From positions 1 to 38,094 of the IMG/VR virus record IMGVR_UViG_3300037827_000203: a DNA stretch of 38,094 bases; one strand, given 5' to 3'. The stretch comes from a virus. Below are positions 1,345 through 37,600 of this stretch, one piece after another. The position numbers and the translations under genes are program-made. The notes below the pieces were generated by a model. It was given only the letters and a program-made list of their open reading frames with translations. It was not told the origin of the DNA and did no database searches. Within the stretch, counting starts at the first letter, position 1. Each line of letters opens with the position of its first letter.

Positions 1345-2304
1345 TTACGGTCCAAATGAGCCATACGTCCCCTGCCACCAACTGGCCCCCGCAGAAAATC
1401 TCTGCGTGGTCAAGAATATCAGAACTTGAGTTTGGAAGTCATCATCCGTCTCGGCCTGAATGGGAACGCGGTCGTACATCTTGAGGCCAGTCTCTTCCTT
1501 GCCCGCGAACAGGAACCACGCGCTCGGGCTGGTCAGATAGTTAAGGTGACGAAACTGAAGGTTTTCACCTTGCAGCGCGTTCAATTCGTTGTCCGCCGTG
1601 TAGGGCTTGCCCGGAGAACCGAGGATTTCCCGGCCGATCATAATCAACTCTGGCGGCAGGAATACGTCCTTCGGCCTCATCATCGAAGGAATGCCGCGCC
1701 CGTCCACGAAGCGGTAGAAGTAATTGATGCCCTGTTGCAGCGAAGTGAAAGAGAAGTCAGCGTCCGGCGTCGGGCGATTCGGATACGTGCCGGCCGAGTT
1801 GATGATATTGGACAGGCCCGGCCCGGTCGTTGTCGCGTCGGTGCCGCCCGGCAGGGGATGGGCTGTGTTGAACAGCGTCACGCCGTCGTCTGTCGTAATG
1901 AGGGTGCCGCCAAGGTTCAGCACGGAAGCGCAGACTGCCTCGCGTGCGTACAGAGCAGACTTCGCATGGGCCTTGGGAATCTGGCGGATGATGCCGTACT
2001 TGTCATCCTCGACAAGCTGCCTTGTAACTTGTGAGGCAAGGCCGTAGGGCAAGTGAAGATACTTCTTGGTGCCCGACTGAACCAAGCCGTCGTAGGCGGG
2101 TCTGGTTCCTTCCGGCATTTCCGGCATCGGACCCGTGCCCGCGACGTGGTAGTCAATCTCGTATGCGTCCTCGCTCGACATGACGTTCATGAACTTGTCG
2201 TATTGCTGAGAACGCATGGTGAGATCGGTGGTTTCGAAGAATATGTGGCGTAAGCCACGCGCAAGCAGCGGAGGAAATGTATTGCGCGAACTGAGATTGT
2301 TCAT
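1345..2304 (-). CDS. Major capsid protein (HK97-fold type, Mu gpT-like)
   Basis: The 319-residue product resembles the major head subunit of phages whose capsid gene follows a scaffold. It has a soluble alpha/beta sequence, an N-terminal segment with many aromatic residues, a central TLFNTAHP motif like that of Mu-type capsid proteins, a DVFLPPEL strand typical of the peripheral domain, and an aromatic C-terminus. No signal peptide or membrane segment is visible. It starts at an ATG preceded by AGGAGAG. It lies downstream of the portal, the likely scaffold and two small structural genes, the standard order for capsid genes. The name rests on these motifs and the gene order; I could not run an alignment. 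Confidence 0.85.
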   Translation of the reverse strand: MNNLSSRNTFPPLLARGLRHIFFETTDLTMRSQQYDKFMNVMSSEDAYEIDYHVAGTGPMPEMPEGTRPAYDGLVQSGTKKYLHLPYGLASQVTRQLVEDDKYGIIRQIPKAHAKSALYAREAVCASVLNLGGTLITTDDGVTLFNTAHPLPGGTDATTTGPGLSNIINSAGTYPNRPTPDADFSFTSLQQGINYFYRFVDGRGIPSMMRPKDVFLPPELIMIGREILGSPGKPYTADNELNALQGENLQFRHLNYLTSPSAWFLFAGKEETGLKMYDRVPIQAETDDDFQTQVLIFLTTQRFSAGASWWQGTYGSFGP

Positions 2305-4605: not shown

Positions 4606-4733
4606 ATAATCCCTCGCGTTTTCATTCCGTTGCCCGGTTCTTTTGTTTCATCCAAGTGAATCAGGAACTCAGCGTTGACCGCTCTGTGGTTCGATAGATC
4701 CTTGAGCAATAGCTGGAATCCCTGCGTTCCCAT
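4533..4733 (-). CDS. Small helical phage protein following the portal
   Basis: The frame encodes a short all-helical protein ending RGIIWLADLLLALPEAVE and a basic tail. I recognise this as a type of small protein often found right after portal genes of phages whose portal runs to about 700 residues; its role is not known. I chose the ATG at 4733 (66 residues), which has GGCGGA upstream and overlaps the portal end by 65 bases. ATGs at 4751 and 4829 are alternatives. The one at 4829 has the best ribosome site (GGAG), but would make a 161-base overlap whose extra residues look like a by-product of the portal frame. Confidence 0.6.
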   Translation of the reverse strand: MGTQGFQLLLKDLSNHRAVNAEFLIHLDETKEPGNGMKTRGIIWLADLLLALPEAVENWKKQATSQ

Positions 4734-6708
4734 TAGTTGATCCGCCAGCATCAGGTTGCTGTGCAGGTGGGGCCATGCCGAGTGCGGACGGGGCGGGTTG
4801 ACCGTTACTTCCTTGCGCTTTCTGGGCATTCTGTTCTTCTCCAAATCTCATCTTCGGAACAAATTCATCCGCGTTATCGAATCCGAACGCGCGGAAGGTG
4901 TCCTTCATCAGTTGGTCTTGCGAGCGAACAATATCCATCAGGTGCTTCTTAACGGCAGGGTCCGACTGAGACATGATGGCCTGAATGATTTTAATCTGTT
5001 CGACGTTGTGTTGCGAGAGAGAATTACGCAAGAGCATCAGATTCTGCTTTTCTACTTCACGGTTCGCCGAAGCCGTTGCCGCTCTGATCGGTATGCGGAC
5101 CTTGTGGCCGAGATAATCTTCCAAGGCTTCTTTCAGTAGGTGATCGTCTAGACCAAAGAACGAACCGCGCTCTCCTGTTCCGAACTTTCCATACATAGCA
5201 GTGCAAAGGGAAACCAACTTAACATGAGAGTGTCGAAAATCGGATACCCGGTGATTAACTCTAGTGTTGCCATCTTGCATGACGGCAAGCGTACCCATTG
5301 AGCCGAATTGCTTATTCTTACCCACTGCCCCCGCACCCATACCCGCGACCGCCGGTCCAACTCCCGCTCGCTCGTCCGCGAGTCTAAGAGTAAGCTCCTC
5401 GTCCTGAAGTCCTCCGTCACCCGGCTCCCGCGCTTGTATCCACTCGGTTTGGTCTTTGGTTCCGGGCAGGATGCAACCGGGGAATATGCCAAAGTTCTTA
5501 TCAAGGTTCGTATTGTCCGTTCGTATGCAGCCGATGATGCCGATGGTGCGCGCGTCAATCCTTTGGTTGTGCGTGGTTGAGACTTCCTCTTGGAAGTTTT
5601 CCAGCATGTCCGCATAACCCCTCCCGTGTATGCCTTCATCGGAGATGGAGAGTTTGGTCGGGATAATCGGCACTTCGTTGTCCGGCATGAAGTTAAATAC
5701 TTGCCTGAGAACAGTACGCGATTTGTAGTGGTAGCTCCAGGTCAGCTCTACTTTGACCTTTTGCGGCTTGCCGCCATCCTTCGAGCGCACGGTTACGAAC
5801 CACCAGAACCAGCACTCGTAGGCGTCCCATTCAGCGAGGATTGCATCCTGCCCGGTCGTGATGCCTTTCTTTGTTTGCTGGCGCTGCGTTTGCAAATCAG
5901 GCCCGTGGCGATCAGGCTTGCCCAGAACCTCTTTTACTTTGTCCTTATCGTAGAAACCTGAGAAAGCTCTCTCTTGCAATTCGTGACGGCTCAGCGTCCT
6001 AATATGACACTTCAGCCTCGATTTCTCCCAGGTCGGCGCTTGCGGGTCGCCAAGCACCTGTTCAAACTTGAGATTGTCAACCGCTGGTCCGTTGTAGGTT
6101 TCCGATGTCTCAAGCTCGGTGCGCTTGGTCTTTTCGTCGTAGCCAACGACCGATACGTTGACGCGCTTGTCAGGGTAGGCTTTGACGAAAGCCGTGCCAA
6201 GGCCGGCAGATTGGCTGAACCAGATGTTTTCCTTTCGGTAGAGGTCCAGTTCCTTCGGCTCGTAGGCTACGTTGTCGATGAACTGTTCGAGGACTTGCTT
6301 TTTCTTTTGGTCGCGCTCGGGATCGACTGACTTGTAGAAGTAGCGGAAGAGGGACACAGGACTGGTAGACCAGACCAATCCCATGACGCGGGCGGCAATG
6401 TCGTCTGTGCGTTGGCCGACAACCTGAATGACCAGGTTTGAGGAGTTGGGCCAAGGAAAGGACTTCTCTCTGTCTTTTGGTTTGCCAAGGATGATCTCCC
6501 GCCAGCGTGGGACTTTCTGCTCGAACAGGACCGTGTAGGACTCTTTCCAGACGCGGATGGTTTCATGCAGCCAGTTCTCGATTTGCTTGTCGATAGACTC
6601 GCCAAATGCGGCCGTGTGCAGCTGGAATTCTTTGTTCTCGGGGAAGGATACCGATAGCTTGGAACTGATTTGGGGTTTCTCGCGGGCGTCGGTGGGTTGG
6701 TCAGGCAT
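4669..6708 (-). CDS. Portal protein
   Basis: The 679-residue product is soluble and follows the large terminase with a coupled stop and start. It has the layout of long portal proteins: an N-terminal helix with a WLHETIRVWKESY segment, a KPKDREKSFPWPNSSNLVIQ region where many portals have a PWPNAxN-like motif, a central beta-rich wing, a long helical stem region rich in aromatic residues near residues 340-400, and a flexible Q/G/A/P-rich C-terminal tail after about residue 630. The portal is the dodecameric ring through which TerL pumps DNA into the capsid. Position and motifs agree, so the call is firm. Confidence 0.88.
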   Translation of the reverse strand: MPDQPTDAREKPQISSKLSVSFPENKEFQLHTAAFGESIDKQIENWLHETIRVWKESYTVLFEQKVPRWREIILGKPKDREKSFPWPNSSNLVIQVVGQRTDDIAARVMGLVWSTSPVSLFRYFYKSVDPERDQKKKQVLEQFIDNVAYEPKELDLYRKENIWFSQSAGLGTAFVKAYPDKRVNVSVVGYDEKTKRTELETSETYNGPAVDNLKFEQVLGDPQAPTWEKSRLKCHIRTLSRHELQERAFSGFYDKDKVKEVLGKPDRHGPDLQTQRQQTKKGITTGQDAILAEWDAYECWFWWFVTVRSKDGGKPQKVKVELTWSYHYKSRTVLRQVFNFMPDNEVPIIPTKLSISDEGIHGRGYADMLENFQEEVSTTHNQRIDARTIGIIGCIRTDNTNLDKNFGIFPGCILPGTKDQTEWIQAREPGDGGLQDEELTLRLADERAGVGPAVAGMGAGAVGKNKQFGSMGTLAVMQDGNTRVNHRVSDFRHSHVKLVSLCTAMYGKFGTGERGSFFGLDDHLLKEALEDYLGHKVRIPIRAATASANREVEKQNLMLLRNSLSQHNVEQIKIIQAIMSQSDPAVKKHLMDIVRSQDQLMKDTFRAFGFDNADEFVPKMRFGEEQNAQKAQGSNGQPAPSALGMAPPAQQPDAGGSTNGNAGIPAIAQGSIEPQSGQR

Positions 6709-8348
6709 CAGTATCCGGTTAGACCAACGCTACGCTCCTTGAAGTCTGCCGCTCGCTGACGCAACCGTTGGTTCACATCCTTGAAGCGAACGTATTGATA
6801 GAGCTGGGGCGAGTAAGAAACTGTGTCGATCACATCAACATCCACACGCTTTCCTCGGTAGTAAGATACGTATTCATGTCTAAAAAGTCCATGTGAATTA
6901 TGAAGCCAGAAGTTTCCGTTACGAACAATCGGTTCGAGCGCTTCGATGCGAATATCCTTCGCGTTGGCACGAGTGTCCTTCGGAAGCTCTTTGAAGATTA
7001 GCGGTTTCTTTTGCTTGTGGTTCAGCTCCTCCAGGTAAAACTTGAGGATGATTTGCGCCGCAACCGTTTCCAGCCAGACCTCGCGAATTCCCCATAATCC
7101 CGCGATATGGTAAAGCTCCGAGCACATCTCCGAGTAGGAACACGATTTCGCCCATTCGTGCATCAGGTAGAAGTTGTCAGTGTCGGTGTCGAGGCCGGTA
7201 ATCGTTATCGCGTGCTTGCATCGTCCTTTTTGCCCCGCGTGGTTCGGGTCAACAATCATGCGGAGCTGTAAAGCTCCGGCTGGAATATCCTCAAGCACTC
7301 TGCCGTCGCGCACCTCGTGCTCAAGGAATAGGAAGTTCGCGGGATCGTCCAGCGGCAGGCTTGGGTCCGAGGCCTTGAACCGATACTCACGCAACCACTC
7401 AGGGCGGAATACTGTGTCGCCTTCGAGAATCGGCAGATTGAGGAATTGGTGGCTGTAATCGTAGTCACCCATCCTCTTGCGCTGGTAGGCCAGTTTCTCC
7501 ATCGGCCACTCTTCTGGAAACAGCGCAATGCCAGCAGGGTGTTCATCGCAGCATCCTCCTTCAGCTGAGTGGGACTCTATAGCGAAAGTCTTGTCATTCT
7601 CGCGTATCCACCCGTCAAGGTCAGCGACTGACCAACGATTCCCATCAACCACGTTATCGCCGTCGCCGATGACGCCTCCCAGCATCCTGTGGTATCGGAT
7701 GGTGGCTTCCGCAACAGCCTCGGACTGCTGAGCTTCCAAGCCAAATAGATCATCTTCAATCGCTCTAGCAGGGTGAAGCCCTGTGACGGCCTGTCCCACT
7801 CCGCGATAATGATACGTACCTTCCTTTCTGATTTCTGAGACATGCGAGCTCCTCCTGTGAATCTTAATTTCGTTGTTCCAGGTCGTTGTGCCGTCTGGGA
7901 TAATCTCGGGGAATATCCAGCGGAACAGGTCGTTGTTCTGGTAGTGATGGTCAATGAGCGTGCCGTTGAGAACTGTATTCTTCTCGGTCTCGGCGATCAA
8001 TAGCGTTGAAGTGTCGCGGTCGTGGGCGTAGCGCATCCAGCGAATCCAGGCGTCATCGTAGCCCGCCTGCCGCATCAGCTCCTCGTCCATCGGAGTGAAG
8101 GGCAAGGCCCACCACATCGGCAAGCCTTCGGCTACCAGAGTTGTTTTGTAATGCCAGCGAGGAAGTTCTAGTACTAGACGCAGGTGTTCTCTTTCGAGCG
8201 AGCGGCAAATCTTGTCATGCAAGCGAGAGAGTTTGTTGCGCTTGAGCGTGAAGCTGATGAAGAAAGCCAGAGAACCTAGCGAGTTCAGCCGTATCGCAGC
8301 CTGGTCAAGCTCTGGCTCGCCGTTTAGGGGGATGGGACGCCAAATCAT
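6708..8348 (-). CDS. terL: Large terminase subunit (packaging ATPase and nuclease)
   Basis: The 546-residue product has both halves of a terminase motor. The ATPase has a deviant Walker A, PRWHYKTTL, at about residues 63-71, with the KTT typical of TerL. A Walker B-like AIEDDL lies near residue 200. The RNase H-like nuclease shows its acidic triad: D in MIVDPN (about 370), E in WLETVAAQ (about 437) and D in DVIDTVSYSPQ (about 505). TerL cuts concatemeric DNA and drives it into the procapsid. The ATG overlaps the stop of the GroES-like gene (TGATG), so these two products are translationally coupled. The portal gene follows directly. Confidence 0.93.
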   Translation of the reverse strand: MIWRPIPLNGEPELDQAAIRLNSLGSLAFFISFTLKRNKLSRLHDKICRSLEREHLRLVLELPRWHYKTTLVAEGLPMWWALPFTPMDEELMRQAGYDDAWIRWMRYAHDRDTSTLLIAETEKNTVLNGTLIDHHYQNNDLFRWIFPEIIPDGTTTWNNEIKIHRRSSHVSEIRKEGTYHYRGVGQAVTGLHPARAIEDDLFGLEAQQSEAVAEATIRYHRMLGGVIGDGDNVVDGNRWSVADLDGWIRENDKTFAIESHSAEGGCCDEHPAGIALFPEEWPMEKLAYQRKRMGDYDYSHQFLNLPILEGDTVFRPEWLREYRFKASDPSLPLDDPANFLFLEHEVRDGRVLEDIPAGALQLRMIVDPNHAGQKGRCKHAITITGLDTDTDNFYLMHEWAKSCSYSEMCSELYHIAGLWGIREVWLETVAAQIILKFYLEELNHKQKKPLIFKELPKDTRANAKDIRIEALEPIVRNGNFWLHNSHGLFRHEYVSYYRGKRVDVDVIDTVSYSPQLYQYVRFKDVNQRLRQRAADFKERSVGLTGY

Positions 8349-8896
8349 CAGCCGCCGACATTGAATTGCTGCTTGCTCACACGGCGAAGTTCCATGTGGC
8401 CCGAGACGCGAGCGATGATTTCCTTGTCCTTGAGCATCCGCACGACGATGCTGATTTCGCGGCCTTGCTCATCCGAGCCTTTCAGGTCCATCACTTCTCC
8501 GCAGAAACTTGGGTACATCACAGAATCTCCGCGCTTTAGTTGCGGGCTTACATCGGAACCTACACTTACGATGCGTCCGGTTGTCGGGCGGCGCTGCGAC
8601 GACTGCGGTATCTCAAGAAGAACTCCCTTGCCGCCACAGTCAGGACACTTAACGTATAGGGAGCCATCGCAATCCTTGCATACAATCTCGGGGTTGAGAC
8701 GAGACCGGCCATTGGCGCAAGACTTACATGATAGCTTGCCCGTTTCGTTACAGGCGTCGCATTCATAGCCGCTCCTAAAAGAATCCTCTAAGACGAGGAT
8801 TTTGTCCCACATTGCCTCAAATCCAACAGGTCCAGCGTGATAGATATTTCCTTTCCTGTCATCGGTTGTGTTGAAGAGCGCCTCGGCCACACTCAC
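8348..8896 (-). CDS. GroES-like co-chaperonin with a DnaJ-type zinc finger in place of the mobile loop
   Basis: The 182-residue product reads as two families merged. Residues 30-41 (WDKILVLEDSFR) match the first strand of GroES, and residues 104-166 match the rest of the GroES barrel: TGRIVSVG, LKRGDSVMYPSFCGEV, then a strand ending KDKEIIARVSG like the E-DILA end of GroES. Between them, residues 46-87 hold four CxxC pairs (46/49, 57/60, 73/76, 84/87), several followed by the G residues of CxxCxGxG, as in the DnaJ zinc finger. The VLL at 92-94, just after the last pair, could replace the GroES IVL that binds GroEL. The start is a GTG overlapping the upstream stop. It lies between TerS-like and TerL genes, suggesting a role in folding virion or packaging proteins. 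Confidence 0.82.
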   Translation of the reverse strand: MSVAEALFNTTDDRKGNIYHAGPVGFEAMWDKILVLEDSFRSGYECDACNETGKLSCKSCANGRSRLNPEIVCKDCDGSLYVKCPDCGGKGVLLEIPQSSQRRPTTGRIVSVGSDVSPQLKRGDSVMYPSFCGEVMDLKGSDEQGREISIVVRMLKDKEIIARVSGHMELRRVSKQQFNVGG

Positions 8897-9255
8897 TGAA
8901 TCACCTCTCCCTCCACTTCAATCGCAGGCTTTGCTGGCAACAAGCGTTGGATAACCTTTTGCGCGGCTTCGCGGTCGCCGTCCGTCAGCGAATGATTGAC
9001 CTCACCGGTTATCTCAATCTGTTGCGCTGGTTTGCCGTACATGAACTCCATGCAGACTTTCCAGACGCCGAATACTACTTTCGGGTCATCGCAGCTCATA
9101 AGCCTGTTTGCCGTTGCGATCGGATCGTTGCGGTTAAAGATGGCGTTTACAACTTCCAGGACGCCAGCATTGATGCGGTTCTTAGCGCCTCGCTTGCGGC
9201 CGGCACCAGGTCTTTTGCCGCCACGAGGCTTGTTTGATTGAGGCTGAATGTTCAT
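8893..9255 (-). CDS. Small terminase-like DNA-binding protein
   Basis: The 120-residue product opens with a basic GGKRPGAGRKRGAKN segment, widespread at the start of phage small terminase and related DNA-binding proteins. Two helical regions follow, with a YGKPAQQIEITGE motif near residue 80 that is typical of the same group. Small terminases recognise the packaging site and load TerL. The gene is the first of the packaging operon. Its promoter lies at 9271-9299 and its stop overlaps the GTG start of the next gene. The identification rests on motifs and position; the group is loosely defined, so it is not certain that it forms a terminase ring. Confidence 0.75.
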   Translation of the reverse strand: MNIQPQSNKPRGGKRPGAGRKRGAKNRINAGVLEVVNAIFNRNDPIATANRLMSCDDPKVVFGVWKVCMEFMYGKPAQQIEITGEVNHSLTDGDREAAQKVIQRLLPAKPAIEVEGEVIQ

Positions 9256-9342: not shown

Positions 9343-9507
9343 TTATTTCTTAGCCTTGGCTGCACGCTTATTCCTACGGATTCTACGCTTTGCGGCCTTC
9401 GTCTTCGGTTCAGGACGATACGCGAGCACAAGGTCTGTGATTGTATCGAAAGATTTCATACGCTTAATTTCATATTCAAGCAATTCGTCTGTGCTTAGTT
9501 TGCTCAT
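9343..9507 (-). CDS. Small basic IS passenger protein
   Basis: The 54-residue product starts at an ATG overlapping the transposase stop by 4 nt (ATGA). It has an acidic helix at the start (STDELLEYEIKRM) and a very basic C-terminal half rich in lysine, arginine and alanine (from about residue 36), so it probably binds nucleic acid. The coupling to the transposase makes equal, linked synthesis likely, and a helper or regulator of transposition is possible. I do not recognise the family. It ends 11 bases before the left inverted repeat. Confidence 0.72.
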   Translation of the reverse strand: MSKLSTDELLEYEIKRMKSFDTITDLVLAYRPEPKTKAAKRRIRRNKRAAKAKK

Positions 9508-10421
9508 GACGTTAGCCTGCTAAAAGTGAGGCGCTTGCCTGCTACGGCATCCACAAAGCTATCTAGGCGCTCTGTGGTGTGTCGGGCGACGTTCCCTTGA
9601 TTCAGCCGGAAAGTAAACTCGTCAACGTAGCGGCCCATATGCTTCTTGGCCGCGTGGTGATAGACGCCGTGCATTCCGCGCTTCATAACGGCCCAAACGG
9701 ACTCAATCGAGTTCGTGTGAACATCACCGCGAACGTACTCGCCAGTGACGTGCTTGACGGAATCGTGCTGGAAACCTTCTTTCGGGAGCGCGGTATAGCT
9801 TCCGTAATCATCGGACAAGATACGGGAGCCGGGCGCTACGTTCTCATGGATTGCGCCACGTAGAGCCAATCCGCCAGTGCTCGCTACAATCTTGGCGACG
9901 GTGTTCCCGCCGCGTTGACGCATCCCAACTACGATAGTTTTCTCTGACCGTTCCCTTGGTTTGTGGATGCGATCGTACATGTGGCGATTGTTTTCCTCGC
10001 CGCCAAAGAACGTCTCATCCACTTCGATAGTGCCTTGGAGCATTGCCAGTTTGGTGCCGCAAGCCTCGCGCAACCTATGAAGCACGAACCATGCAGACTT
10101 CTGTGTAATGCCGATTTCTTTGCCGAGTTGAAGCGAGCTAATTCCCTTGCGGGCAGTCACAAGCAAATACATGGCATAGAGCCACTTATGGAGCGGTACG
10201 TGACTGCGCTCAAAGATAGTACCTGTGCGAACGGTAAAGTCTAGTTTGCAGGCATTGCAGCGATAGAAGCCATCTTTGCGTGTTGTGATGCGCTCTTTGC
10301 TCTTGCACTCAGGACAAGTAACGCCATCCTTCCAGAGCCGCCCTTCAAGGTACTTGCGAGCGGATGGTTCATCGGGAAACAGTTCAAAGAGTTTGAAGGT
10401 GCTGATGGTTGAACGGCTCAT
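9504..10421 (-). CDS. IS1595-family (ISXO2-like) transposase
   Basis: The 305-residue product has the domains expected in order. An N-terminal zinc ribbon uses C36, C39, C55 and C58 (CPEC and CNAC). A helix-turn-helix lies near residues 93-118. An RNase H-fold catalytic core carries the first acid in EVDETFFGG (D135), the second in LSDDYGSY (D204 or D205), and a final HTNSIESVW motif (N237/E240) followed by KRG, as in the DDE/DDN-type catalytic cores of this family. It ends with the usual aromatic-rich helices. The length is normal and no frameshift is seen. The enzyme cuts at the inverted repeats and leaves 8-bp duplications, which fits the observed ends. Confidence 0.95.
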   Translation of the reverse strand: MSRSTISTFKLFELFPDEPSARKYLEGRLWKDGVTCPECKSKERITTRKDGFYRCNACKLDFTVRTGTIFERSHVPLHKWLYAMYLLVTARKGISSLQLGKEIGITQKSAWFVLHRLREACGTKLAMLQGTIEVDETFFGGEENNRHMYDRIHKPRERSEKTIVVGMRQRGGNTVAKIVASTGGLALRGAIHENVAPGSRILSDDYGSYTALPKEGFQHDSVKHVTGEYVRGDVHTNSIESVWAVMKRGMHGVYHHAAKKHMGRYVDEFTFRLNQGNVARHTTERLDSFVDAVAGKRLTFSRLTS

Positions 10422-24436: not shown

Positions 24437-25798
24437 CTAGGTAAAAAACTTCTTGAGCTTCTTCCATAAACTGCGCTTGCTGCTTGCTCCCGGTATTGAG
24501 ACACAGAGAGCATTCGATGGGACCGATTGAATCGTGCCTGCAACGCCGATCACGTCGTAGCAATACGGACTGCCGCTCGTCACATTCGGATCGGTATAAC
24601 TCGCTGCGGTGACGGCTGCAATCTGCGTGAACGGGCCGGCAGTTGTGGCTGCTCGCTGCACGATGAAACTTGTTGCTGGCGTGCCGCCTGAGCCGGGTGT
24701 CCAGGTAAGAGCCACCGAATGTTGGACCGGCACGGGATATGGGTTGATCGTTACGTTGCACACATTCAGCGTACCCGTGCCCACGTCCTGAAAGACGCTC
24801 AGGAATCCCAAGCTCGCCGGCGTGCCCGCCGCGGTCCTAAATGCGTAATTCGTCGCTACCTGGATTCCGTTCACGTAGCCGTTGTAGGTGTGGTTTGTCA
24901 TGTTCACATCAAACGTGAGCGTGTAGGTGCCTGCCGCAGTGTAAGACGCTGCCGTGGACGTTGGGTATGGGAATGCAGAGTTAAGCATTTGCACAAAGCC
25001 CGTCGTACCAAACAGCGCTGGGACGGACGTGCCATTATCCGTGGTTGCTGCGGCCGACGAAAGCGCAACGAGGCCATCCATATCCGCAGCGGATGGCGTC
25101 ACGGTTACAACAAGCTCGAAGTTCGCTGTCTGCGTGGGAAAGGTTAGATTGGTCCAAGTGTTCGCCGGAACTAGCGTGCAACCATTTGAAGCTGGTGCAA
25201 CCGTCAGCGTGACGGGAACTTTCAAAGTTGGTGTCGTGAACAGTTTCTGGGTAATGATGACGTTGCCTTTGTAGGTGCCCGCAGCAAGACCGGTCAGCAC
25301 AACAGAAACGGCGTCGCTGAATTGCGTTGTCCCACTTGGGACACTCACTTTCAGCCAGGATGAATCCGTCGTTACTGTTGTCCCTGGCCAAGCGCAGTAA
25401 GGTACAGGCGGGACCGCTGGGCAGGATGAAGTGTCAAAGATACTTAGAGTTTGTGCGACTGGAGCAGCGGCCCCAACCGTGCCGGAAAAAGTTAAGGACG
25501 TTGGTGGCGTGGGATTGCAGGCGTTCGCGCACAGGACGTATGGGAAGGTCGTAGGCGCAGGTGCCTTTACTGTCACCGTCACAGTGCCATCAGGACAAGT
25601 CGCTGTGATTTGAGTTGCACTCACGACCACGACGTTGGTGCAAGCCGTGCCACTGGGCGAAGCGGTCACAGTGTCGCCGGCAGCGAAGCCGGTGCCTGTG
25701 ATGACGTTATTCTCGATGACCGAGGTGACGGTCTGCGCTTGTATGGGTTGTACCAGCAGCATCAGTAGAAAGATTGCAGCTACGACTGTTTTCTTCAT
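24437..25798 (-). CDS. Secreted multidomain protein with BACON-, lectin- and FnIII-like domains
   Basis: The 453-residue product starts with a Sec signal peptide (MKKTVVAAIFLLMLLVQPIQ, then AQ as likely cleavage). A BACON-like domain follows (WLKVSVPSGT, GLAAGTYKGNVIIT). A domain like a concanavalin-type lectin spans about residues 210-340 (NYAFRTAAG, DVGTGTLNVCNV). A fibronectin type III domain ends the chain (VALTWTPGSG, SYTDPNV, YCYDVIG). The ATG at 25798 has GAGGAG upstream. The frame is open to 25981, so a longer product carrying a zinc-like domain is possible (see that entry). Such domains bind sugars or host surfaces. Confidence 0.8.
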   Translation of the reverse strand: MKKTVVAAIFLLMLLVQPIQAQTVTSVIENNVITGTGFAAGDTVTASPSGTACTNVVVVSATQITATCPDGTVTVTVKAPAPTTFPYVLCANACNPTPPTSLTFSGTVGAAAPVAQTLSIFDTSSCPAVPPVPYCAWPGTTVTTDSSWLKVSVPSGTTQFSDAVSVVLTGLAAGTYKGNVIITQKLFTTPTLKVPVTLTVAPASNGCTLVPANTWTNLTFPTQTANFELVVTVTPSAADMDGLVALSSAAATTDNGTSVPALFGTTGFVQMLNSAFPYPTSTAASYTAAGTYTLTFDVNMTNHTYNGYVNGIQVATNYAFRTAAGTPASLGFLSVFQDVGTGTLNVCNVTINPYPVPVQHSVALTWTPGSGGTPATSFIVQRAATTAGPFTQIAAVTAASYTDPNVTSGSPYCYDVIGVAGTIQSVPSNALCVSIPGASSKRSLWKKLKKFFT

Positions 25799-25981
25799 TG
25801 CTCTACTCCTCATCCACTCGTAAAGCCAATCACGCAGCGAAAGAACCTGTCGGTGATGATACTCGCAATACCCTAAATCGCTCTCCAGAAAATACTTCGT
25901 CGCGACTCGACCGCAACGATAACCTTCGTCGCGCCACTGGCAGCCGTCGTCGCTCCGCATGTATATGTTGAGTCCCCTCAT
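25796..25981 (-). other. In-frame zinc-like domain directly upstream of the secreted protein
   Basis: The 61 codons in front of the signal peptide encode a CQW....RCG....LGYCEYHH....LRDWLYEW domain, closely like the separate 75-residue protein at 26006-26233. No stop codon separates it from the secreted protein. The ATG at 25981 has GGTGGGG only ten bases upstream, while the ATG at 25798 has a strong site. It may be the 5' part of a fusion, or a decayed duplicate gene that lost its stop. Confidence 0.6.
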
Positions 25982-26005
25982 TGCACTGTCGCCCCACCAG
26001 TCAGC

Positions 26006-26233
26006 TTAACACCGCCGCCAATAAGTCGCAGCCGCCTCAATTAATTCCTTCATCTCTTCGCTTCCTGCCCACGAGTAAAACCACTCTCGCAGGTGGCCTA
26101 CCTTCGGGTAATGTTCCAAGCAGTAGCCCAAACCGCTATCGTGTATCCTCTTTTTAACAGGCATCCCGCAGCGTGAATGCGTGCGGGGATCGGGCCATTG
26201 GCATCCTCGCGCGCGGCGGGTGTCGTTGCTCAT
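26006..26233 (-). CDS. Small zinc-like protein, paralog of the neighbouring fused domain
   Basis: The 75-residue product starts MSNDTRRARGCQWPDPRTHS and has likely ligands in CQW, RCG and YCLEH. A WFYSW-type segment closes the domain. The ATG at 26233 overlaps the stop of the beta-helix gene by 4 nt. It is homologous to the domain at 25796-25981. It may be a chaperone or adaptor for the tail proteins made next to it. Function not known. Confidence 0.72.
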   Translation of the reverse strand: MSNDTRRARGCQWPDPRTHSRCGMPVKKRIHDSGLGYCLEHYPKVGHLREWFYSWAGSEEMKELIEAAATYWRRC

Positions 26234-27879
26234 TGGATGGAAGCTCCCGAAGTAAGCTTGATTCCGCCCAGAGCGCTTGAACCTGTTGGGCCACCACTGC
26301 CTGCGTTGAATGCTCCCATGTCCCAAGCGGTGCTTGCAGGACGTGCGTTCCCAAGTTGGTCACTGTCTAATCCCGTAATGCTTAGGGACGTGAGGTTTAC
26401 TCCAACCGCCGCCGCTGCGCTTCCGCTTGACAACTGATATTCGGGAGTGCTGGACAGGTTCAGATTAGGATTTCCTGTTACCGTATTCGTGTCCTGGCTG
26501 GTCGATGTTTTCCACGCGCTCAAGGCGCAGACGGACCCACAAGTTGTGTTGTAGGCGAATGACGCCATCCCGAAGGCATCGTTATAATCCGAAGTAATGG
26601 TGCAACTTCCGCTCACGTTATAGGCGGCGCTCATTCCGACGAAAAGATTGTTTTTCATCGTGACGAGTGCTCCAGCTTCACACTGCATCGCGTCGTTCAA
26701 ATCGCTTCCATGACCGACGCTGTAGAATGTATTGTTATAAGCCGCCACCGTCGATCCCTCGAAAGCGAATATTCCATTGCCGCCCGCTCCCGTGTAAATG
26801 GCACTGTTAACGTCTTCGCTGATCGCTACGTTATTGAATACTGTCGCATTAATGCTGGTAGGAGCCGTACAACTTCCACCACCGTCGCATTCAATGTACA
26901 GTCCTGCGGTGAGACTATAGCCCATGGTTCCGTGGAAATAATTTCCGGCCACGGTGAAGTTGGTGATCGTCGCGCCACTCTGTTGCGTATACAGGTGGAC
27001 AAATTCGTGGTGGTTCGGACAACTTCCGCCGCAGGAGTTAGAGGTATCCCAATTCGCCATGTTGGAAAAATCATTGTTGTTTATCGAACCGCTCGTGATT
27101 GACGCCCCCGTCGTACCGGCCCCAACCTGTGCACCGACTTCAATATTCGTCATCCAATTATTGTCTACGTGCATCCCAGCATTTGAACCTTGGTAGGCGA
27201 GCAGCACACCGTTGAACGAATTGTTCACCTCGTTGTTGTGGACGTTTATGTTGCCGCCGCCCCCTCCGCCAGAGGGATACCACCAGACACAGGCGGAGTT
27301 ATTGATTCCGCTCGTCGTCTCATTGTTGGTGTTGTTTTGCACGGGCACGAACAGGTTCTGACAGTTCACGTTTCGCACCTCAATGTCGTGCGTCCCTGAA
27401 CCGAGATTTATTCCATGACTATTCGCTACTTGGTTGGCCAAAGACGCTCCATTGGCAGTCGCCTGAATCTCTCCATTACACGCCACATCAGCACTGTTTA
27501 CGTAACCACAGGGCGTAGATGTAGGGCTGCCATCGATCAAGATAAAGCCTTGTCCTGATATGGTGATGAAGCCCCCCGAACCCCAATACGGAGCGGTTGC
27601 ATTTGCTCCAGTGTCGAACCTTATGGTTATCAGGTTGCCGGAGGTGCCGCTGCCTCCAACCGAGATTGCTCCGCTTTCTCCGCCCGAGTACGTGAATGTA
27701 CCGCAGAGAAAGTAGGTATTCCCCGCTGTCCAGGTTATTGAAGCCACAGCAATCGCGGTCTGCGTTCCTCCGTTACAAGTTAGTGGTCCAGCGGTCTGCG
27801 CGACATAGACCGTGGCCGCGTGCGCGGTCTGCGCAAGGAGAAAGAGTGCCGCAAGAATCCAAATTTTTCTTAGTTGCAC
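26230..27879 (-). CDS. Secreted right-handed beta-helix protein
   Basis: The 549-residue product starts at a GTG ([20 protein letters not shown], a Sec signal peptide ending AHA) that overlaps the upstream stop by 10 nt. The body is a long series of beta-helix rungs with many asparagines and short hydrophobic strands (INLGSGTHDIEV, INVHNNEVNN, FNNVAISEDVNS), the fold of pectate lyases and phage tail spikes. It probably binds or cuts a polysaccharide. A secreted version inside a tail operon is unusual. No catalytic residues can be named from sequence. Confidence 0.83.
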   Translation of the reverse strand: MQLRKIWILAALFLLAQTAHAATVYVAQTAGPLTCNGGTQTAIAVASITWTAGNTYFLCGTFTYSGGESGAISVGGSGTSGNLITIRFDTGANATAPYWGSGGFITISGQGFILIDGSPTSTPCGYVNSADVACNGEIQATANGASLANQVANSHGINLGSGTHDIEVRNVNCQNLFVPVQNNTNNETTSGINNSACVWWYPSGGGGGGNINVHNNEVNNSFNGVLLAYQGSNAGMHVDNNWMTNIEVGAQVGAGTTGASITSGSINNNDFSNMANWDTSNSCGGSCPNHHEFVHLYTQQSGATITNFTVAGNYFHGTMGYSLTAGLYIECDGGGSCTAPTSINATVFNNVAISEDVNSAIYTGAGGNGIFAFEGSTVAAYNNTFYSVGHGSDLNDAMQCEAGALVTMKNNLFVGMSAAYNVSGSCTITSDYNDAFGMASFAYNTTCGSVCALSAWKTSTSQDTNTVTGNPNLNLSSTPEYQLSSGSAAAAVGVNLTSLSITGLDSDQLGNARPASTAWDMGAFNAGSGGPTGSSALGGIKLTSGASIQ

Positions 27880-30800
27880 GACTCGCTGACTCCCGCACCA
27901 GTCATGCAAACGCCTGCGGACCTTGTGCCGTCCATCCGCTTCACCACAATCGCATAGTGAATATTTGCCGCCGACACAGCCTGATTCGGGAAGCCATCGT
28001 ACCAAGACTGTGTGCCGACTGGAGGAGTTGCTATTAACTGCGGCTGTGCTGCCAGTTCTCCGCCGCTCAGTGCAACCGCCGCTCCTTCCCGGTAGTAAAT
28101 CTGATCGTAACGGTCGCCTGCTCCGCCCGCGTCGGTCCATGTAAGTTTGTAGCCTCCGATAGCCGTGTTCGATGTTGGAGGAGGACCACCGCTGCTGCTG
28201 TACGTTCCGAACGTGCAATCAATGTAGCTTCCTTGAGCGTTCGCGTTATAGTTCAGGAAGATGGTGGATTGAACCGTGGTCAAGTTGATGCAGCTTGTGG
28301 GCGTTTGCAGGAACATCTGACTTGCTGTGGGCTGAGTAGAGGAAGGTCCGAACGCCCAAATCTGCACCGCGTCCTGCCCGACCATTTCCAGATTGGGAGT
28401 GATAAGTACAGCACCCTGAGACGCCAAGGTGACATGGCCCATGTTGCCGACTGGCGTGCAGTTTGGATTTGTGTCTGCCGGGAAATCGAGAAACTTGCAG
28501 TAGGAAACTACGTACCAATATTCTCCGGTGAGACTTCCTGTTCCCGCAATCAAAGAGTGTGGGGCCGATGGCGTGCTGACTCCCGCGCAAGCTGTGGCGC
28601 ATGTGAGATATTGCGTAACCGCCATGCCGGTTACGTTACTGACTCCCGTGGGAGCGAAATGGACCGTTCCTTCTCCTTGCTCGACTGTCTGCGTGAATGT
28701 TCCCGAGGCATTCGCAATCTTGATGACGTTCGAGAGGTGATTCGATTCCTGACCGCTCCATTCCTGCGAGGTAATTCCGTAGCAGGCGTTGAGTCCGGTG
28801 GTCAGGGCTGCGTCTGTGTAGGTGTAAGCGGCTGTTGTGTATCCCGGTACGCCTGTTCCCCAATTCGCTGCGGTGACAGAGCTAAGTCGGGACCATGTTC
28901 CAGAGCAAGAGACTTGCTTGTAGACCCAGTAGAATTGCGTCTCACGATTCATCGGTGCGGCGGTGAAGGAGACAAGAGCAGAAGAGGATGAGCCCAGATG
29001 CACGGAGACAGGAGGGTCGGGACGGTGCGTGAAGAACTCCCAGCCCAGTAAAGTTCCGCATTGATTCCCGGTGAGAAACCCGCCTGCGCAGCTCGATAAG
29101 TAATACATCTGCGATGGCTGCATCGAGTAATTGAGTTTAGTTCCGTCCGGTGACTGCACGGGGCTCAGATCGTAACTGGGAATCAGGGTTGGCGCGGAAG
29201 TCCCCAGCGGCTGGCAGCCGAAATTATGAAGAACTGTCCGGGTTGTCGTGGCGAGGTTTTCCTCAGATAGAGTCTCGCTGTAGCAGCCGTTGGCATTCTG
29301 CCCCGGCATCACAATCAAATCGCTTCCCGCTCCTTCTCCCGAATCATGGCCAAAATAGGCAATGCGGTATCCGTCCCAAGCCAAGTGCCCAATGGTCGTA
29401 CCAGTCGCAGCCTGCCATGCAATCGTTACAGTAGGAAAGCGAAGATCGAAAACAAAGTTACCTCCGTTGGTCGTGCTGGTACAGGTATGCGGGGTCGTCT
29501 GCGGGCCGCTGGCATTGCAAAGTGCTTGCGAGTTGGTCGATACCAGATAGGGATTTGCGGCGCTGAAAGCTGGGTGGCCCCAGATATACATATTAGCCAC
29601 GGTGTTCGGAGACACAGCCGCAACGCTCCCGCCGCTAATTGTCCCGTTGAAGAAAATGGATTCACCGACCGCACCACCAGGACCGTAGAGCCAGGACAAT
29701 GTATTGGTTTGTGGCACGAACCACATATCGTGGAAACCGCGCTCGCAAGCGTCTGTCCCGTTGGGACCAGGGTCGCCAGTGACCGTATTGACACAATGCG
29801 GGTCGCCACCCGTATCCCAGCCGAAGTTTATCGTGCCCAGATTTGCATTCCACGTTCCAGCTTGGGTCGCGCAACTGGATGCCAATGTAGTGTAGCAATT
29901 GGTCAAATCGAAAGTCGTAATCTGCGGAGCGCAGGCTGGGACGATGGGGTAGCACTTGGAAACCGCCGCCGTTCCTGTGTCTGTTGCCGAGCTGACATTG
30001 CCGCTATTAATCGCAACCGTGAAAGTCTTGGCTGAGGCATTGACCGCTGTGACTGGATAGCCGTATATCGCCGTTCCGGTATCGGCTGCTGAGGTCACAG
30101 TTCCTGCTAAGGCAATCGAGAACGTTCCACTTCCTACCGCTGTCACCGTGGCATTCGATACGTTGAATGCTCCGCTGCCGTTCGTGGTGTTGTAAATAAT
30201 CCCCATCACAGCGCCGACAAGGGGAGCGGGAGTGCCGGTGTAGGTATAAGTCGCCGTGCCTCCGCTTGAAACTGTGTTCGTGATCGTCAGTGTCCCGCCT
30301 GCAATATTAAATACTCCGCTGCCGTTCGTGGTGCCGGTCACGGTGACAAAGGGACCGGCTACCGGAGCGCCGCTGGCATTGCTGTAGGTGTAGGTCGCCA
30401 CATCCGAGGCTAGAACTGTGTTGGTGACGGTGAAACTGAGGGAGGTAAAATTCGCGGTCTTTAATGTATACAGACTATCGGTAGGACCTCCGTTATAGGA
30501 AAAGGGACTAGGGCATTCAAATCCACAGTTCGGCCAACCTCCGGCTGGGTTCAACGTGTGTGTCGCAACGGATGTTCTGGTCTGAGTGTTCAGGTCGCAG
30601 ACATAGATGTTGGAGTTGTCGTTTGTGTTTATCCAGCTCGGATGATTTTTATCCATCGTGAAAGCGTATCCGATTGGTTTGCAGGTGGAAGCAAGTAGTT
30701 GCAGCGCACTTCCATTCGCTTGTTGTGAGTAAAACAGGCTCCCGCATCCTCCAGGAATGCAGTTGTAATCTGAAAAGGTTATCCACTTGCCGTCGAAACT

Positions 30801-31583
30801 CCGCGTCGGCCTGTTGATGGATGAACCTGCCGTGTCAGGCATCAGCACACCCTCACCCCAGTCATTATTGAAGGTGATAATCGACGCATCAATATTCGGG
30901 TCCGGCGGCACAGCTGTCTGCGTGATTCCGCTTACCGCAGACGAGAACGTATCCACGAAATTAATCAGCAAGGGCTGATAAGTGACTGGAGATGTTGCAA
31001 GAGCATAGGTGCTCCACGGGATGTTGTTGATCGGACCGAAGGTAGCGCAAGATGCCGTCACGCAAGCAAACTGAAATCTCCCGCGATGTGTCCAGTACTC
31101 ATTCAGATTATCAAGATAGGTGAAATTCACCGTGATCTGCGCGGCATTGGTTCCATCGGTGATGTTGATCGTTACCACTTGTGTTGAGGGATAGAGCGGA
31201 GGGGCATTGTAGAGGCAGACGGTGTTTGCAGCTGACCCGGCGCAGTTGATCTGTCCGAGCGGAGTTATAACTCCAGCCTGAGCGGTCGTGCTCACTGTCG
31301 AAACTGTGTCGCTATTCTGGTCCAACAGAGTCCAGGTGCAGGGCGAGCCGCTCGTACATCCTGACCCAGTGATCGTAATCGTGCTGCCCACGTAAAAGAC
31401 GCTGTTCACTCCCCCGCCTCCGCCCGAAGGGGAGCCGCCAGGATTCGGATAGGATAGCCCTGTTGTGATGGTTGAGCCGTTGAGCGATGCGTTGACTCCA
31501 ACCGTAGTGACGGTCGCGGTCGTCGCCCCACGCGCGACGAAAGCGCACAGAAGCAGCAAGAGTGTAATCTTCAGCTTCATCAT
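27870..31583 (-). CDS. Very large secreted protein with propeller-like and FnIII-like parts
   Basis: The 1237-residue product starts with a Sec signal ([20 protein letters not shown]). It contains beta-propeller-like strands ([14 protein letters not shown] and similar, around 270-340), and tandem Thr/Val-rich modules with the repeated TNGSGVFNI and TNGSGAFNV (about residues 410-500). An FnIII-like part near residues 890-970 follows. It has many cysteines, consistent with export. The ATG overlaps the stop of the preceding gene. Its role may be host-surface or capsule binding, and it may be part of a secreted tail-like apparatus or a lysogenic-conversion factor. Confidence 0.78.
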
Positions 31584-34500
31584 TGGATTTGCAGGTGGAT
31601 AAGGGGCAACGTCGTCGATGCCGCCTGCGTCCCGCCTCCCACTCCCAACTCAAATGTTCCAGAGGTAGCAACCACGACTCCAACTTGCTGCCCGAGGGTG
31701 CAGGCCCCCAGACCTCCGCTGTCGGTTATCTGTCCTCCCGTCGAGCCAGTGCAGACAGTATGCCCCAGCGTGACGGCGGCGCTGGCGTTGATGAACATAT
31801 TTCCTTCGGAGATTACTAGGACTGGATTGGTGGTTGTGTAGGCGATTCCAAGGACGCTTGTTGAACTGGCGGCGCAATCAGCTACCGTGATGTTAGCCGA
31901 TTCACATTCAAGGTTCCATTTTGTGACGGTAGCACCGGCCAGATATTCGTCTGCGGTCCACCGAATGCCGGGTGTGCCGGTTGCGGAGGTAACTCCACCG
32001 GGTCGCGTCAAGACTGATCCGGCGGTGGTCGCGCCTGTTCCAGTCGAATCGCCGCCTTTAAGGACTAGGGCCGCACCGACAGAACCTCCGTTCGTTGTTT
32101 GGTCGTATCCGCCCCATACCGTCGTAGTGTTAGAGATCGAGCCTCGATATTGCCCGCTGGCAATGGAACCAAGGGCGTTCGTGCTACCGATACTGCAGCT
32201 CGCGGCACCGTTGCACTGAATGTTTCCCGAAGCGTCGAAGTACATATCTACGCCTATCTGACCAGACGCCGGGTTGAGCAAAATCCAGTTCGTGCCATTA
32301 TTGTAGAAAGTGGAATAGTACGCGCCTGCTGTGGCTCCGTAGTCTCCAGCCCGAAGCGCGATAAGCGTACCCGCAGAACCGAGCTTCAATATCGTTTCTG
32401 CGCCAGCACCATCAGCATTGAGCGTCGGCGTTGTGGTCGTGTTGGCGAGGTTCGTGAGTACATTGACCATCTGCCCTGTGGCGTTCGTCACGCCGCCAGT
32501 GCTAGAGGTAACGGTCATTACGTTCACCGAGCCTGCACCGGGGCCGAATGGAATGCCACCGCCTCCCGTTCCTACAAGAGCTGCCTCAGCCCCACCATTT
32601 TGACTGTATAGCAACTTGTGGGTAGTGGAATCCGCGCGAACATAATCAAAACCCGCCGTTGGAGTCCATCCGGTTGTGGTGGATTCGGTCATGCACACGC
32701 CGCCCGTGGCGGAGGTTCCTGCCGGTGTACAACCTGAGCCTGTTGAAACGCTCGCAGCAGAAAGAGGCTCGGTCGTTGAAACAGTAGTACCGTTGTCCGT
32801 GATGCTGGAAGCTGCTATGCAAGCCCCAGAGCCGCCGCCCTTCGGCAAAATGCCTGCCGCCAGAGTTGCGGATGTCGCCTCAACTGTGGTGCTGGTGAAG
32901 CAAGGAATCCCGCCAGAGTTAACCGTGCCGGAGACGGTCACGGGAAAGGCAGAGCCTCCACCACCGCTAGGTGTGGCCCACGTTCCATCCCCGCGCCAGA
33001 AGGTTGAGCTGGATGCGCTTGTGCCGCCGTTCAGGTTCGTGACTGGCAGGTTCCCTGTGATGGTAGCTCCCGCACCAAGATTAACCGTCTGCGAGGTATC
33101 GCTGCCGCCCAGTGCGCCACCAAGAGACAGGCACCCGATTACCGTGGTGGAAGCAGCGTTGCAGGCTATTGTGACCGTTTGACTGGCCTGCGATGGTGCG
33201 GCCATGCCTAGGCCGAAGGACTCGATAATTGCTCCGGTCAGGGCTGTGTTGGAGCCGTACTGCACCGATGAAACTCCGCCGCCGCTGCCGCACACTTGCC
33301 ACGTCGCCGCTGAAGTCGATGTGCTCGTGGGGCAATAGCCACTGCCTGCCGGTGCGCTGCCAATAGAGACTCCGCCGTAGCTCGTAGCGTTGATGGTGCC
33401 TGTGCCGCTGACGGTAATGGATGCGCCCGAGCCAACGACTCCCGCCATGGTTGTGTTCGTGCCACTGGTGAGCGCACTGAACGCCGAGCTTCCTCCGCCT
33501 CCGGCATTGTTGCAGTCAAAGAGCCAGTTATTAGCAACGAACGGGTCTACCGCTCCGCGGCAGGCTACCTGGGTTGCAACATTGAGAGTTGATCCGTGCG
33601 AGTGGCCAACGGTAACCGTCCAGCCTCCAGCAGGAGTGACGGTCAGTGTTTGCAAGCTGTGGTTGGTTATAAAGTACGAGAAGTTCGGAATCCCCAGCGT
33701 CGTTGGAGTGGGCAGCGTTTGGGTTACAGTCCCCGATGCGCTGAAATCCTGCTCCACGATATTTTGATTGTCTGCAGCCACCACGGTATCTGTGGTTGCA
33801 GCACCAGTGATAGCCCTGACTGTGACCTGGAAAGTTGGCAGATCGGCAAGGACGATTCCGCGAAATGAATACGCGCCCGTTCCGCCAGTCGAAGGACCGG
33901 CGAGGAATGAGTTCTGCGCTGCGGTTGAAGCTGTGAAGCTCAGAGCAGGAGTGGTGGTCGCGGTCGCTACGCTCGTCGTGAACAGCGGAGGCAAGGTACC
34001 CGCGCTGAAGGTCGTTACCGTACCGCTGCCACTCGCCGTAACCGTTATCGCAGGAGTCGTGGTCGGATTGGCTACCGTGCATCCGCTTACGCAGGAAACG
34101 CTGGTTACTGTGCCACTTCCCCCGCCCCCACCTCCCGCAGTCACCCACGCTCCCCGATCGTAAATGCGCAACGCTGGTATCGTGAGATTCCAGTAGACAG
34201 AACCTTCGGTGAATCCGATGATTTCGCTGTCCGAATAGGCGACGGAAAGGATTCCAGGCTGCACCTGAATTGCCGGAGGCGTTGCATTCAGCGTCTGCGT
34301 TGAACCTGTGATGGTCACTGGAGCGGTCGTGTAGCATTGGGCGGGATTCGCTTGCGGGCAGAACTTTACGAGCCACTGAGAGTTTACCGGAGTGATGGCT
34401 GTGTTTGAGGGGATGCTGACCGAGTACGTTCCCGAACTGGACAGTGAGCCAGTGATGGGCGCGTTGATATTGAATGCACCTCCTGACCAGGCGTAGGGGC

Positions 34501-34660
34501 CGACTGGGTAACTTGGGTTCGGCACGAACTGAAACGTATACGAGCCATTATTCCACGTCTGGCTGCCGACGTCGGTGACCGTGCCGCTTACCGTCGTTGA
34601 CTGCCCGAAAGCAGGAATCGCCAAGAGTGTGAGTGCGAGAGAGAGTAAGAGTTTTCTCAT
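31580..34660 (-). CDS. Large tail-fibre-like protein with a signal peptide
   Basis: The 1026-residue product starts [20 protein letters not shown], a Sec signal, at an ATG preceded by TAGGAG. The rest has the repetitive Gly/Thr/Ser/Ala-rich beta structure of tail fibres, with a characteristic block ([17 protein letters not shown], then [20 protein letters not shown]) found in fibre and spike proteins of many phages, and GTVTSV repeats. A C-terminal domain ends [10 protein letters not shown]. Fibre proteins are normally cytoplasmic until assembly, so the signal peptide is a surprise. The family call is strong; the export is a prediction. Confidence 0.82.
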
Positions 34661-34668
34661 GCCATCTC

Positions 34669-37600
34669 CTAAAAACATTTCCACGAGCCGCCCGCAGCGA
34701 ATGCGGATGCCGCAGTCGTTCCGCCGCCGACACATGTTTGTCCTTCGGCAGAAATAGCGGTTGAATCCGTCACATAAATAGATGTGCCCTTATAAGTCGA
34801 AGCCGAGGGCAGCGCTGCTACAGTAGTTCCCGCTGTAGTTGACGGGCAAAGATTCGGCTGCGTGCTGGTGATGTTCGCGCCGTCCCGAGCGTACAGGGCA
34901 AGTTCTGCCGCTGTCGCCGTGGGAATCGTGCACGCGGGCGTCTGCTCGTCGTGGAACAGGTTGGTTACGTTCGTCCCAGCCAGCGTGTAGCCCGCCTCCA
35001 TCACTGAGCCGTCAACCGCAAAAGCATTCGACCATTGAACGCAATCGGTAACGGGATAGCCTGCCGTGCCAGCGCAGCCGTAGGCTTCTATCTTTACGCC
35101 GTGCGTGTTGCGTGCAGACCCCACCACCAGACAATTAACACAGTGCTCACCGTCAAAGCTGTGAATGGTGATGGAGGCTGCGTCAATTGTCATGCAGGTG
35201 GTGGGTTCTGTCGTATCCGCTACGCCGTCGCAGGTGATGTGGTCGAACAGGATTTTGCCGATCAGCAAGGCACTGGCATCCCCGACCTGCATTCCCTTCG
35301 CTCCAGCGGAAGCAAGTCCGTTCAGGCCGATTATCGAGTTCCGGTACGGGCCGGAGTTCTGCGCCTGTGAACCGTGGATGTCTACAAGACCACCATCGCT
35401 GATTAGGTTGTCCCATCCGCAACCTTGCTGGCACCAGGTATTTTGTACCGTGATGCAACTTGCGATAGCGGTGCCTGCTGGGTCTACGCAAGTCACGCGA
35501 TAGGAGCCGTGCAGATACACGCCGAAGGAGGCTGTTCCGGTGACGCCAAGCTCCAGTACCGGGGTGCTCGTCGGGAAAGAATTAGCGGCCTGCAAAGAGA
35601 ATCCGCCAAACGGATAAGGAGTAGCCAGCCCCCAGCCGCAATCATTCGACATCGAGTAATGGGTAGGCATCACCATCGCAACAGATGTAACTACGTTCAG
35701 GTTGCACGGAGTGCGGATGCTTTCAACATAGCTGGCGCTCGAAGGAAGTGTCCCGCCCCAGAAGGAATTGGCAACGGTTTGCGTCCCACTGAAGGCCGTG
35801 ATGTCGATGATTGCGCCCAAAGGTGAGGCTGTATTCGCGATTGCTCGCACCGTCTGAATCTTCGTGCCTAAGTCCGCGCCTGCTGTCGTTGGCAGGACGT
35901 AATAAACATTGCCGTTCAATAGCGGGGTTGTGACTCCGGGCACAGTGATAGGATTCGTGGCGTTCAGGTTCTGCTGGTCGAACACCCAGCCCACGCAGGG
36001 CATGAACAAGCCGTTCGGCCCGTCATCATCGAGACGCCCACCATCGCATTCGATAGACTGACTCCCTGAACCTGTGACTTCTGAAGGATCGCCGCCCCCG
36101 TCGTTCTGCGGATTGTTCGCTACTCCGATGTAGTACGTCAAAAACATGTTCTGCCCAGCATCGCCTTCCATCGCTACAAGGGCTTGTTGCTCGGTGTCAA
36201 AGTGAACGTGATTCATGTATAGAGTCGGAAAGGAATTTCCGTTGTTGTTTTCAAACATGACAAAAGGGATGATACCACCTTGCCGGTAGGTGCTGTCGAT
36301 ATAGACTTGGTTCCCTCCGCCGTCCGTGCTTTTTGAGAAGATACCTCTGCGATTAAAGTTGCCGCCTTTCAGGATGATTCCGCTTGCTCCGTTCGAGGAG
36401 CTTCCTTCCAGTAGGACTAGAGGAGTCCAAGTCTGGTCTACCACCTGCCCCGGCCCGCCAGCAAAGGTGCACCAGTCGCACTCAAAGGGCATGGAAGTAC
36501 CCGGAGGCTCAAAGAGAGCAATGCCCATGTTGTCGTTGGCGTTGTTCCCTGTCTCGAACTGCAAGTTGAAGAACTTGCTGGTGAATTGCGAAGCACTGAC
36601 CATCAGCACTCCGTTTCCGTTCGAGGGGCCGAAGATAGCCAGGTTCGCCATGTAGAATGGGTAGCCATTGAAGAAGTGCATGTCGATGCAGGGATTTGAA
36701 TTGCAAGTGATGAGCGGAGGGCTGTCGTTTGCGAACGGAGGCAGATTTCCACTGGTGGTTCCTTTGTATGTTTCACCTGACCAACGTGTTCCGCTTACTG
36801 GAACTACCGGGGCATTGACGACAAGATTGCCAGCCTGAATAATTCCTGTGCCTCCAATCCCGACTGCACTGTTAATCGGGAAGGTTCCCACGGGAATGTA
36901 AATCCCCGCCACGGCGCTGGGACTAGCCACCGCCGCAATCTGAGCCTCTCCGATGGCGTTGTGATTGTCGAGGCGTACCGCCGTTCCACTGACGGATGTT
37001 GTCATCCCAAACTTCAGCGTGATGCCGGTGGTGCCGCCGCCAGCCTGCACGATATCGTCGTCAAGCTGAGGCTGCGCGGAACCAGCGGTGCAATTCGCGT
37101 TCGAGATGTACCACGGCACCACCGGATTCGCTGAAAGAGTCGCACCGAAATCCACGAAGCGAGTTGTGGTGGGCAGCGGAGTGCCGATGATGTGATAACT
37201 CGCGTCTCCGGGTCGCTCAACACAGACCCAGGAGCGATACGAACCACTCACGGCGGGAAGGGTCACGTTGTTCCCTGTAAAGTAAACGAGGGTTCCGCTA
37301 GCAGCGGTTGGAGTGGCCGTGCCGGAGTTCATAACAGTTTGGGTAGCTCCAGCCTGAGTCGAGTTGGTGATGGTCTGGATGATGTCCCACTGGCTGAGGT
37401 AGTAGCTATTCGCTCCGGCTGTCACATGCGCGAGGGCATATTGAGCAAGTCCATGTGCGGTTGAGGTGGTAAAGGAAAACACTTTTCCGGTTTGACTCGC
37501 TGCTGATAGGGCCAGGGTTACTTGGCCTAGCGTGGCTGGACCGTTGCAGTTGGTCGTTACTGGGCTTGCCGCTGTCACGCCGCCCAAAATATCTTCCGCG

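Follow-up and report, generated by a model that had tools for sequence, protein, structure and literature searches.

A putative phage co-chaperonin with a predicted DnaJ/BSD2-type zinc finger inserted in its mobile loop

The closest described counterparts of the protein analysed in this work are the phage-encoded co-chaperonins T4 gp31 and RB49 CocO, with which it shares a GroES fold, an extended mobile loop and an expected use of the host GroEL. To our knowledge, neither of these carries a zinc finger, and neither is encoded by a gene that overlaps the terminase genes. gp31 enlarges the GroEL cage and, for the head protein gp23, keeps its roof open, and its lack of the roof hairpin is a further likeness to the present protein (PMC6318259). 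Bacterial GroES (Cpn10) has the barrel, the loop contact stretch and the C-terminal strand D-I-L-A-x-V in common with it, but is about 97 aa long, has the roof hairpin and contains no CxxC. The cysteine-rich domain of BSD2 and DnaJ resembles the added part of the protein in being a two-zinc hairpin with four CxxC pairs and in matching residues 42-96 structurally, but occurs on its own or joined to a J domain. In DnaJ and BSD2, pairs 1 and 4 and pairs 2 and 3 each bind one zinc, and the CxxC pairs of DnaJ are spaced wider than those of the protein described here. BSD2, a two-zinc DnaJ-like hairpin, works on Rubisco subunits once they have left the chaperonin (PMC5859369). Helicobacter pylori HspA likewise joins GroES to a Cys-containing metal-binding part, but this part is a His/Cys-rich C-terminal tail that binds nickel (PMC5116745) rather than a mobile-loop CxxC finger.

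The DNA analysed (the window) is the 38,094-nt stretch of the virus record IMGVR_UViG_3300037827_000203 (IMG/VR). The putative zinc-finger co-chaperonin gene lies at 8348..8896 on the minus strand, with a GTG start at 8896 and a stop at 8348-8350, and encodes 182 aa. On the same strand, residues 17-45 (8762..8848) comprise the first GroES strands (DKILVLED) and the first limb of the loop (F-R-S-G-Y-E); residues 46-87 (8636..8761) hold the eight-Cys insert of the DnaJ/BSD2 zinc-finger type, with CxxC pairs at 46/49, 57/60, 73/76 and 84/87; residues 88-98 (GGKGVLLEIPQ, 8603..8635) keep the second limb of this mobile loop, including a predicted GroEL contact at L94-E95-I96-P97; and residues 99-166 (8399..8602) form the rest of the GroES barrel, with a short turn (SDVSPQ) and without the roof hairpin.

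The Pfam Cpn10 model (PF00166) matched residues 96-141 with an E value of 3.7e-6 and 27.3 bits against a curated cut-off of 21.1. The protein of a near copy, L001, also matched above this cut-off, and all six members of an alignment of the first six relatives matched Cpn10, with E values up to 1. A profile of these six relatives, searched against solved chains, matched Cpn20 (2.7e-12) and GroES (about 1e-4) over residues 90-165; phmmer with the window protein against the PDB returned Cpn20 (3.4e-6), and weak matches were obtained to the PHROG 'co-chaperonin GroES' and to several NCBIfam GroES models. The gene is under purifying selection: in a codon-by-codon comparison of the window and L001 genes, pS was 0.66 and pN 0.079 (0.18 within the finger, against 0.03 in the barrel behind it), with all eight Cys kept. 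Because the eight Cys are also invariant among the six relatives collected first, whose identity falls as low as 35%, and pN is low against pS, the four-CxxC GroES pattern is not a chance arrangement.

Relatives were gathered by direct search, then by a terminase search and then by searches with family alignments. The direct search returned one near copy, L001 (90% over 166 residues). The comparison set comprised 59 proteins, including that of the window and some near-duplicates; ahead of the loop motif, 54 carried four C-x(1,2)-C pairs and four carried two, and one protein was finger-free. The search for homologues with the same insert, proposed in an earlier reading of the DNA made without databases (the sequence-only reading), thus yielded 58 finger-bearing proteins, nearly all of them on viral contigs. 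A genome scan queried with two close relatives gave no match. The family profile recovered ordinary GroES genes from 299 genomes, and none of the host GroES sequences examined from this sample carried a finger. INPHARED phages and plasmid records contained no family member, so that the family is so far metagenomic only. Among viral proteins in BFVD, some GroES entries are 140-200 aa long and may likewise contain inserts. Many soil phages appear to make a GroES with a zinc finger in its loop.

Several candidates were rejected as relatives. Matches in the huge phages LR756502, LR745206 and LR756504 and in Arthrobacter phages were weak and confined to the CxxC region, and those of LR756502 and LR745206 proved on inspection to be unrelated: the proteins contain long CxxC runs and lack a GroES part. 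The proteins in these two genomes (L003:1828-3339 and L161) are long and unannotated, with C-terminal runs of more than eight CxxC in the style of the DnaJ finger, and several such CxxC-run matches occur per genome. The candidate from Bacteroides phage DAC16_261 turned out to be a finger-free phage GroES of the ordinary kind.

The position of the finger was taken from alignment. Profile-profile alignment by hhalign to nine ordinary GroES sequences paired the residues behind the finger with the GroES loop (GG-IIIPD) and then with the remaining barrel (probability 97.9, E 4e-13); once the finger columns were deleted, the alignment also took in the first strand (DKILV against DRVIV). The family consensus right after the last CxxC, GG-[IL]-V-[VI]-P, is in GroES register. 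A finger-free phage relative of 99 aa, L159, matches both sides of the insertion point and reads ...VIVQEDPFKYE-GLIKIPDTAKRRPTTG... (loop F-K-Y-E/G-L-I-K-I-P-D), where the window protein reads ...VLEDSFRSGYE-[finger]-KGVLLEIPQSSQRRPTTG.... On the profile alignment and the finger-free L159, the finger is placed within the mobile loop, with the GroEL-contact part retained behind it. The sequence-only reading had the loop replaced by the finger, which is incorrect, since the finger lies inside the loop and the contact stretch follows it, with L159 indicating a clean insertion; its proposed GroEL contact, VLL at 92-94, was off by two, the alignment giving L94-E95-I96 before P97. All three residues of this triplet are hydrophobic in 44 of the 59 proteins and at least two in 57. 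The L-E-I of the window, with Glu in the middle, is a weaker form of the hydrophobic tripeptide, and weak triplets (ASS, AHA, SHA) occur in a small number of relatives.

A structure was predicted with AlphaFold2 from the window protein and 20 relatives (pLDDT 74, pTM 0.56), with low-confidence hinges on either side of the finger (residues 40-44 and 94-97). Foldseek against the PDB placed Mycobacterium tuberculosis Cpn10 and T4 gp31 first, followed, among the high-probability matches, by BSD2 over the finger. VIA-align 2 gave Z 10.5 for Cpn10 (2.0 Å over 74 residues), 9.2 for GroEL-bound gp31 and 6.7 for BSD2 (6ekb; model residues 42-96, 2.3 Å over 54 residues, 28% identity). A second, better model, of the L023 protein (pLDDT 82, pTM 0.69), matched gp31 (Z 10.4), GroES (9.9), Cpn10 (9.8) and BSD2 (5.7). 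As Z values below 8 can reflect common arrangements, the BSD2 match leans also on the shared Cys pattern. Both proteins are predicted to have the GroES barrel fold. The finger resembles the DnaJ/BSD2 type, yet by score falls outside those Pfam families (DnaJ_CXXCXGXG 14.9 against a curated cut-off of 32.7 bits, BSD2_CRD 19.1 against 27). In its main lines the sequence-only reading was upheld: its CxxC positions were exact, and it gave no strand for the gene; its GroES assignment agrees with the Cpn10 match above cut-off and with GroES and gp31 as best structural matches; GroES was found over residues 104-166 by profile and structure searches; the predicted model keeps GroES strands around the CxxC finger; and the four CxxC pairs, with the BSD2 fold match over their region, fit the DnaJ-type zinc finger that it had named.

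The protein is probably a gp31-like phage lid for the host GroEL, bearing a zinc module that would serve clients or strengthen docking. We infer the lid function, and with it heptamer formation, zinc binding, GroEL capping and the client role. Seven copies would form a GroES/gp31-like ring, which would cap the host GroEL via the conserved hydrophobic stretch behind the finger and carry a two-zinc BSD2/DnaJ-type hairpin, on flexible linkers, on each mobile loop. The GroES roof hairpin was not found in the family alignment; gp31 also lacks it, so it is not required of phage members, and its absence may, as in gp31, give large phage proteins a more open dome. The seven rim hairpins would most likely touch clients that are folding or just released (major head protein, portal or terminase) and hand them on, much as BSD2 passes on Rubisco after the chaperonin; that they merely strengthen docking to GroEL would be less likely. 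A gp31-like lid with client-handling hairpins is favoured because gp31 provides an open cage and BSD2 acts after the chaperonin; by that analogy the client role, taken alone, is put forward tentatively. The major head protein candidate (1345..2304, minus; phrog_371, 3.6e-16) is a likely client by analogy with gp23 and gp31. No GroEL gene was found in 20 virus records checked (most of them incomplete), and the phage lid should therefore act on the host GroEL.

The main alternative, somewhat unlikely, is that the finger touches no client and instead braces the disordered mobile loop, or binds GroEL and so outcompetes host GroES. Its insertion within the GroEL-binding loop would suit such a role, as would a finger sequence that varies freely while the Cys stay, and the gp31 loop is also longer than that of GroES (PMC6318259). 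The brace is disfavoured by the linkers at both ends of the finger, which are predicted to be flexible, and a finger ranging in size from two to four Cys pairs speaks against bracing and docking alike.

The gene lies among head and packaging genes. A TerS-like gene (8893..9255, minus; phrog_15261, of unknown function, 6e-10), whose match to terminase small subunit was only 0.29, is located upstream, and its stop overlaps the co-chaperonin start by 4 nt (GTGA); the co-chaperonin stop overlaps the ATG of the terminase large subunit gene (6708..8348, minus; phrog_38, 1.2e-43) as TGATG. These overlaps are as described in the sequence-only reading, which had proposed translational coupling between the TerS-like gene and TerL. 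An SU10-type portal protein, a possible client, is encoded at 4669..6708 (minus). An IS1595-type transposase gene (9504-10421) is present upstream of the TerS-like gene, around which terminal inverted repeats of at least 14 bp were sought and not found. Large ORFs of 514, 662, 1237, 1051 and 1116 aa occupy 24437-38019 on the minus strand; PHROG at 0.01 gave no match for the 514-, 662-, 1237- and 1051-aa ORFs.

Each of the 19 viral loci in the first set of relatives had the co-chaperonin gene upstream of terL, with both genes on one strand. Contigs with related terminases had a finger-type gene near terL in 47 of 80 cases; the remaining 33 comprised 2 in which the contig end truncates the gene, 20 with too little upstream sequence and 11 with at least 2.5 kb upstream and no finger-type gene. 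Five of these 11 carried a relative elsewhere on the contig (four with a finger, one plain), and the other six are fragments of 6-18 kb. A second context, after a DUF3987-like gene, was found in L159 and L027, which form a natural pair without and with the insert: a finger-free GroES (L159:1432-1731) and one with a large finger (L027:4896-5567, from a contig assigned by binning to Sulfuriferula). Between the window and L001, protein identity was 51% for the terminase and 82-90% for the co-chaperonin, and DNA identity was 86% in the portal region; with its L001 terminase just 51% identical, the terL neighbour is much less well conserved than the co-chaperonin, which suggests, from these identities, mosaic exchange around terL.

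The overlaps with the TerS-like and TerL genes, and a position near terL conserved in 47/80 loci, would also suit a GroES fold reused to assist DNA packaging or the terminase, in which case DNA or TerL would be bound by the finger. We regard this as improbable, given the conserved GroEL-contact stretch, the location of the gene elsewhere in some relatives, with or without a finger (L027, L159), and the protein-binding habit of DnaJ/BSD2-type fingers.

For the zinc module of the proposed gp31-like lid, the CxxC pairs probably form two nested zinc sites, as judged from sequence patterns and models. In the two-pair members (L025, L072, L073 and L102) the Cys pairs are missing two at a time, and comparison of L025 with its near relative L043 fits the joint loss of pairs 1 and 4, as expected if the sites are nested. 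The two-pair members are scattered in a tree of the finger-less core, which has few columns and many weak forks. Two proteins from different parts of that tree (L023:3124-3768 and L097:3785-4483) carry an extra four-Cys zinc-like module (IFCxRC...TCxxCxGTGG) at the site of the missing roof. Eight conserved Cys beside the binding loop could alternatively act as a redox or zinc switch tuning lid binding, and oxidising activity is reported for ZnJ6, a zinc-finger chaperone that resembles DnaJ (PMC7865324). Such a switch is quite improbable, as the nested two-zinc architecture is fully accounted for as a structural fold. An ADH-type GroES-like domain in place of a co-chaperonin (ADH chains share the barrel, some with a structural zinc) drew a weak ADH_N match (0.23) and structural Z values of 6 to 7, and was rejected as highly improbable because the Cpn10 matches are far stronger in sequence and structure and 182 aa leave no room for a Rossmann domain.

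The gp31-like lid may, more speculatively, select its own clients, with the hairpins on its GroEL-gripping loops catching phage head or packaging proteins at the mouth of the cage; one chain would then serve both as a lid of the GroES type and as a client chaperone of the BSD2/DnaJ type, and some members would have a third zinc module where the roof is missing. In keeping with the statement of the sequence-only reading that it knew of no described protein of this architecture, the openly searchable full-text literature gave no description of a GroES with a mobile-loop zinc finger, and an earlier mention is possible. Phage co-chaperonins are known; the loop zinc finger, in a so far metagenomic phage group, appears to be new. 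If the proposal is true, a chaperonin cap, GroES being usually viewed as a generic lid, would carry its own client-handling or docking module, and the order of head and packaging genes would be tied to a dedicated folding factor. Naturally occurring forms that lack the finger, that have one or two zincs, or that combine the finger with a roof module would allow client selectivity conferred by the lid to be tested, and also bear on how phages take over GroEL.
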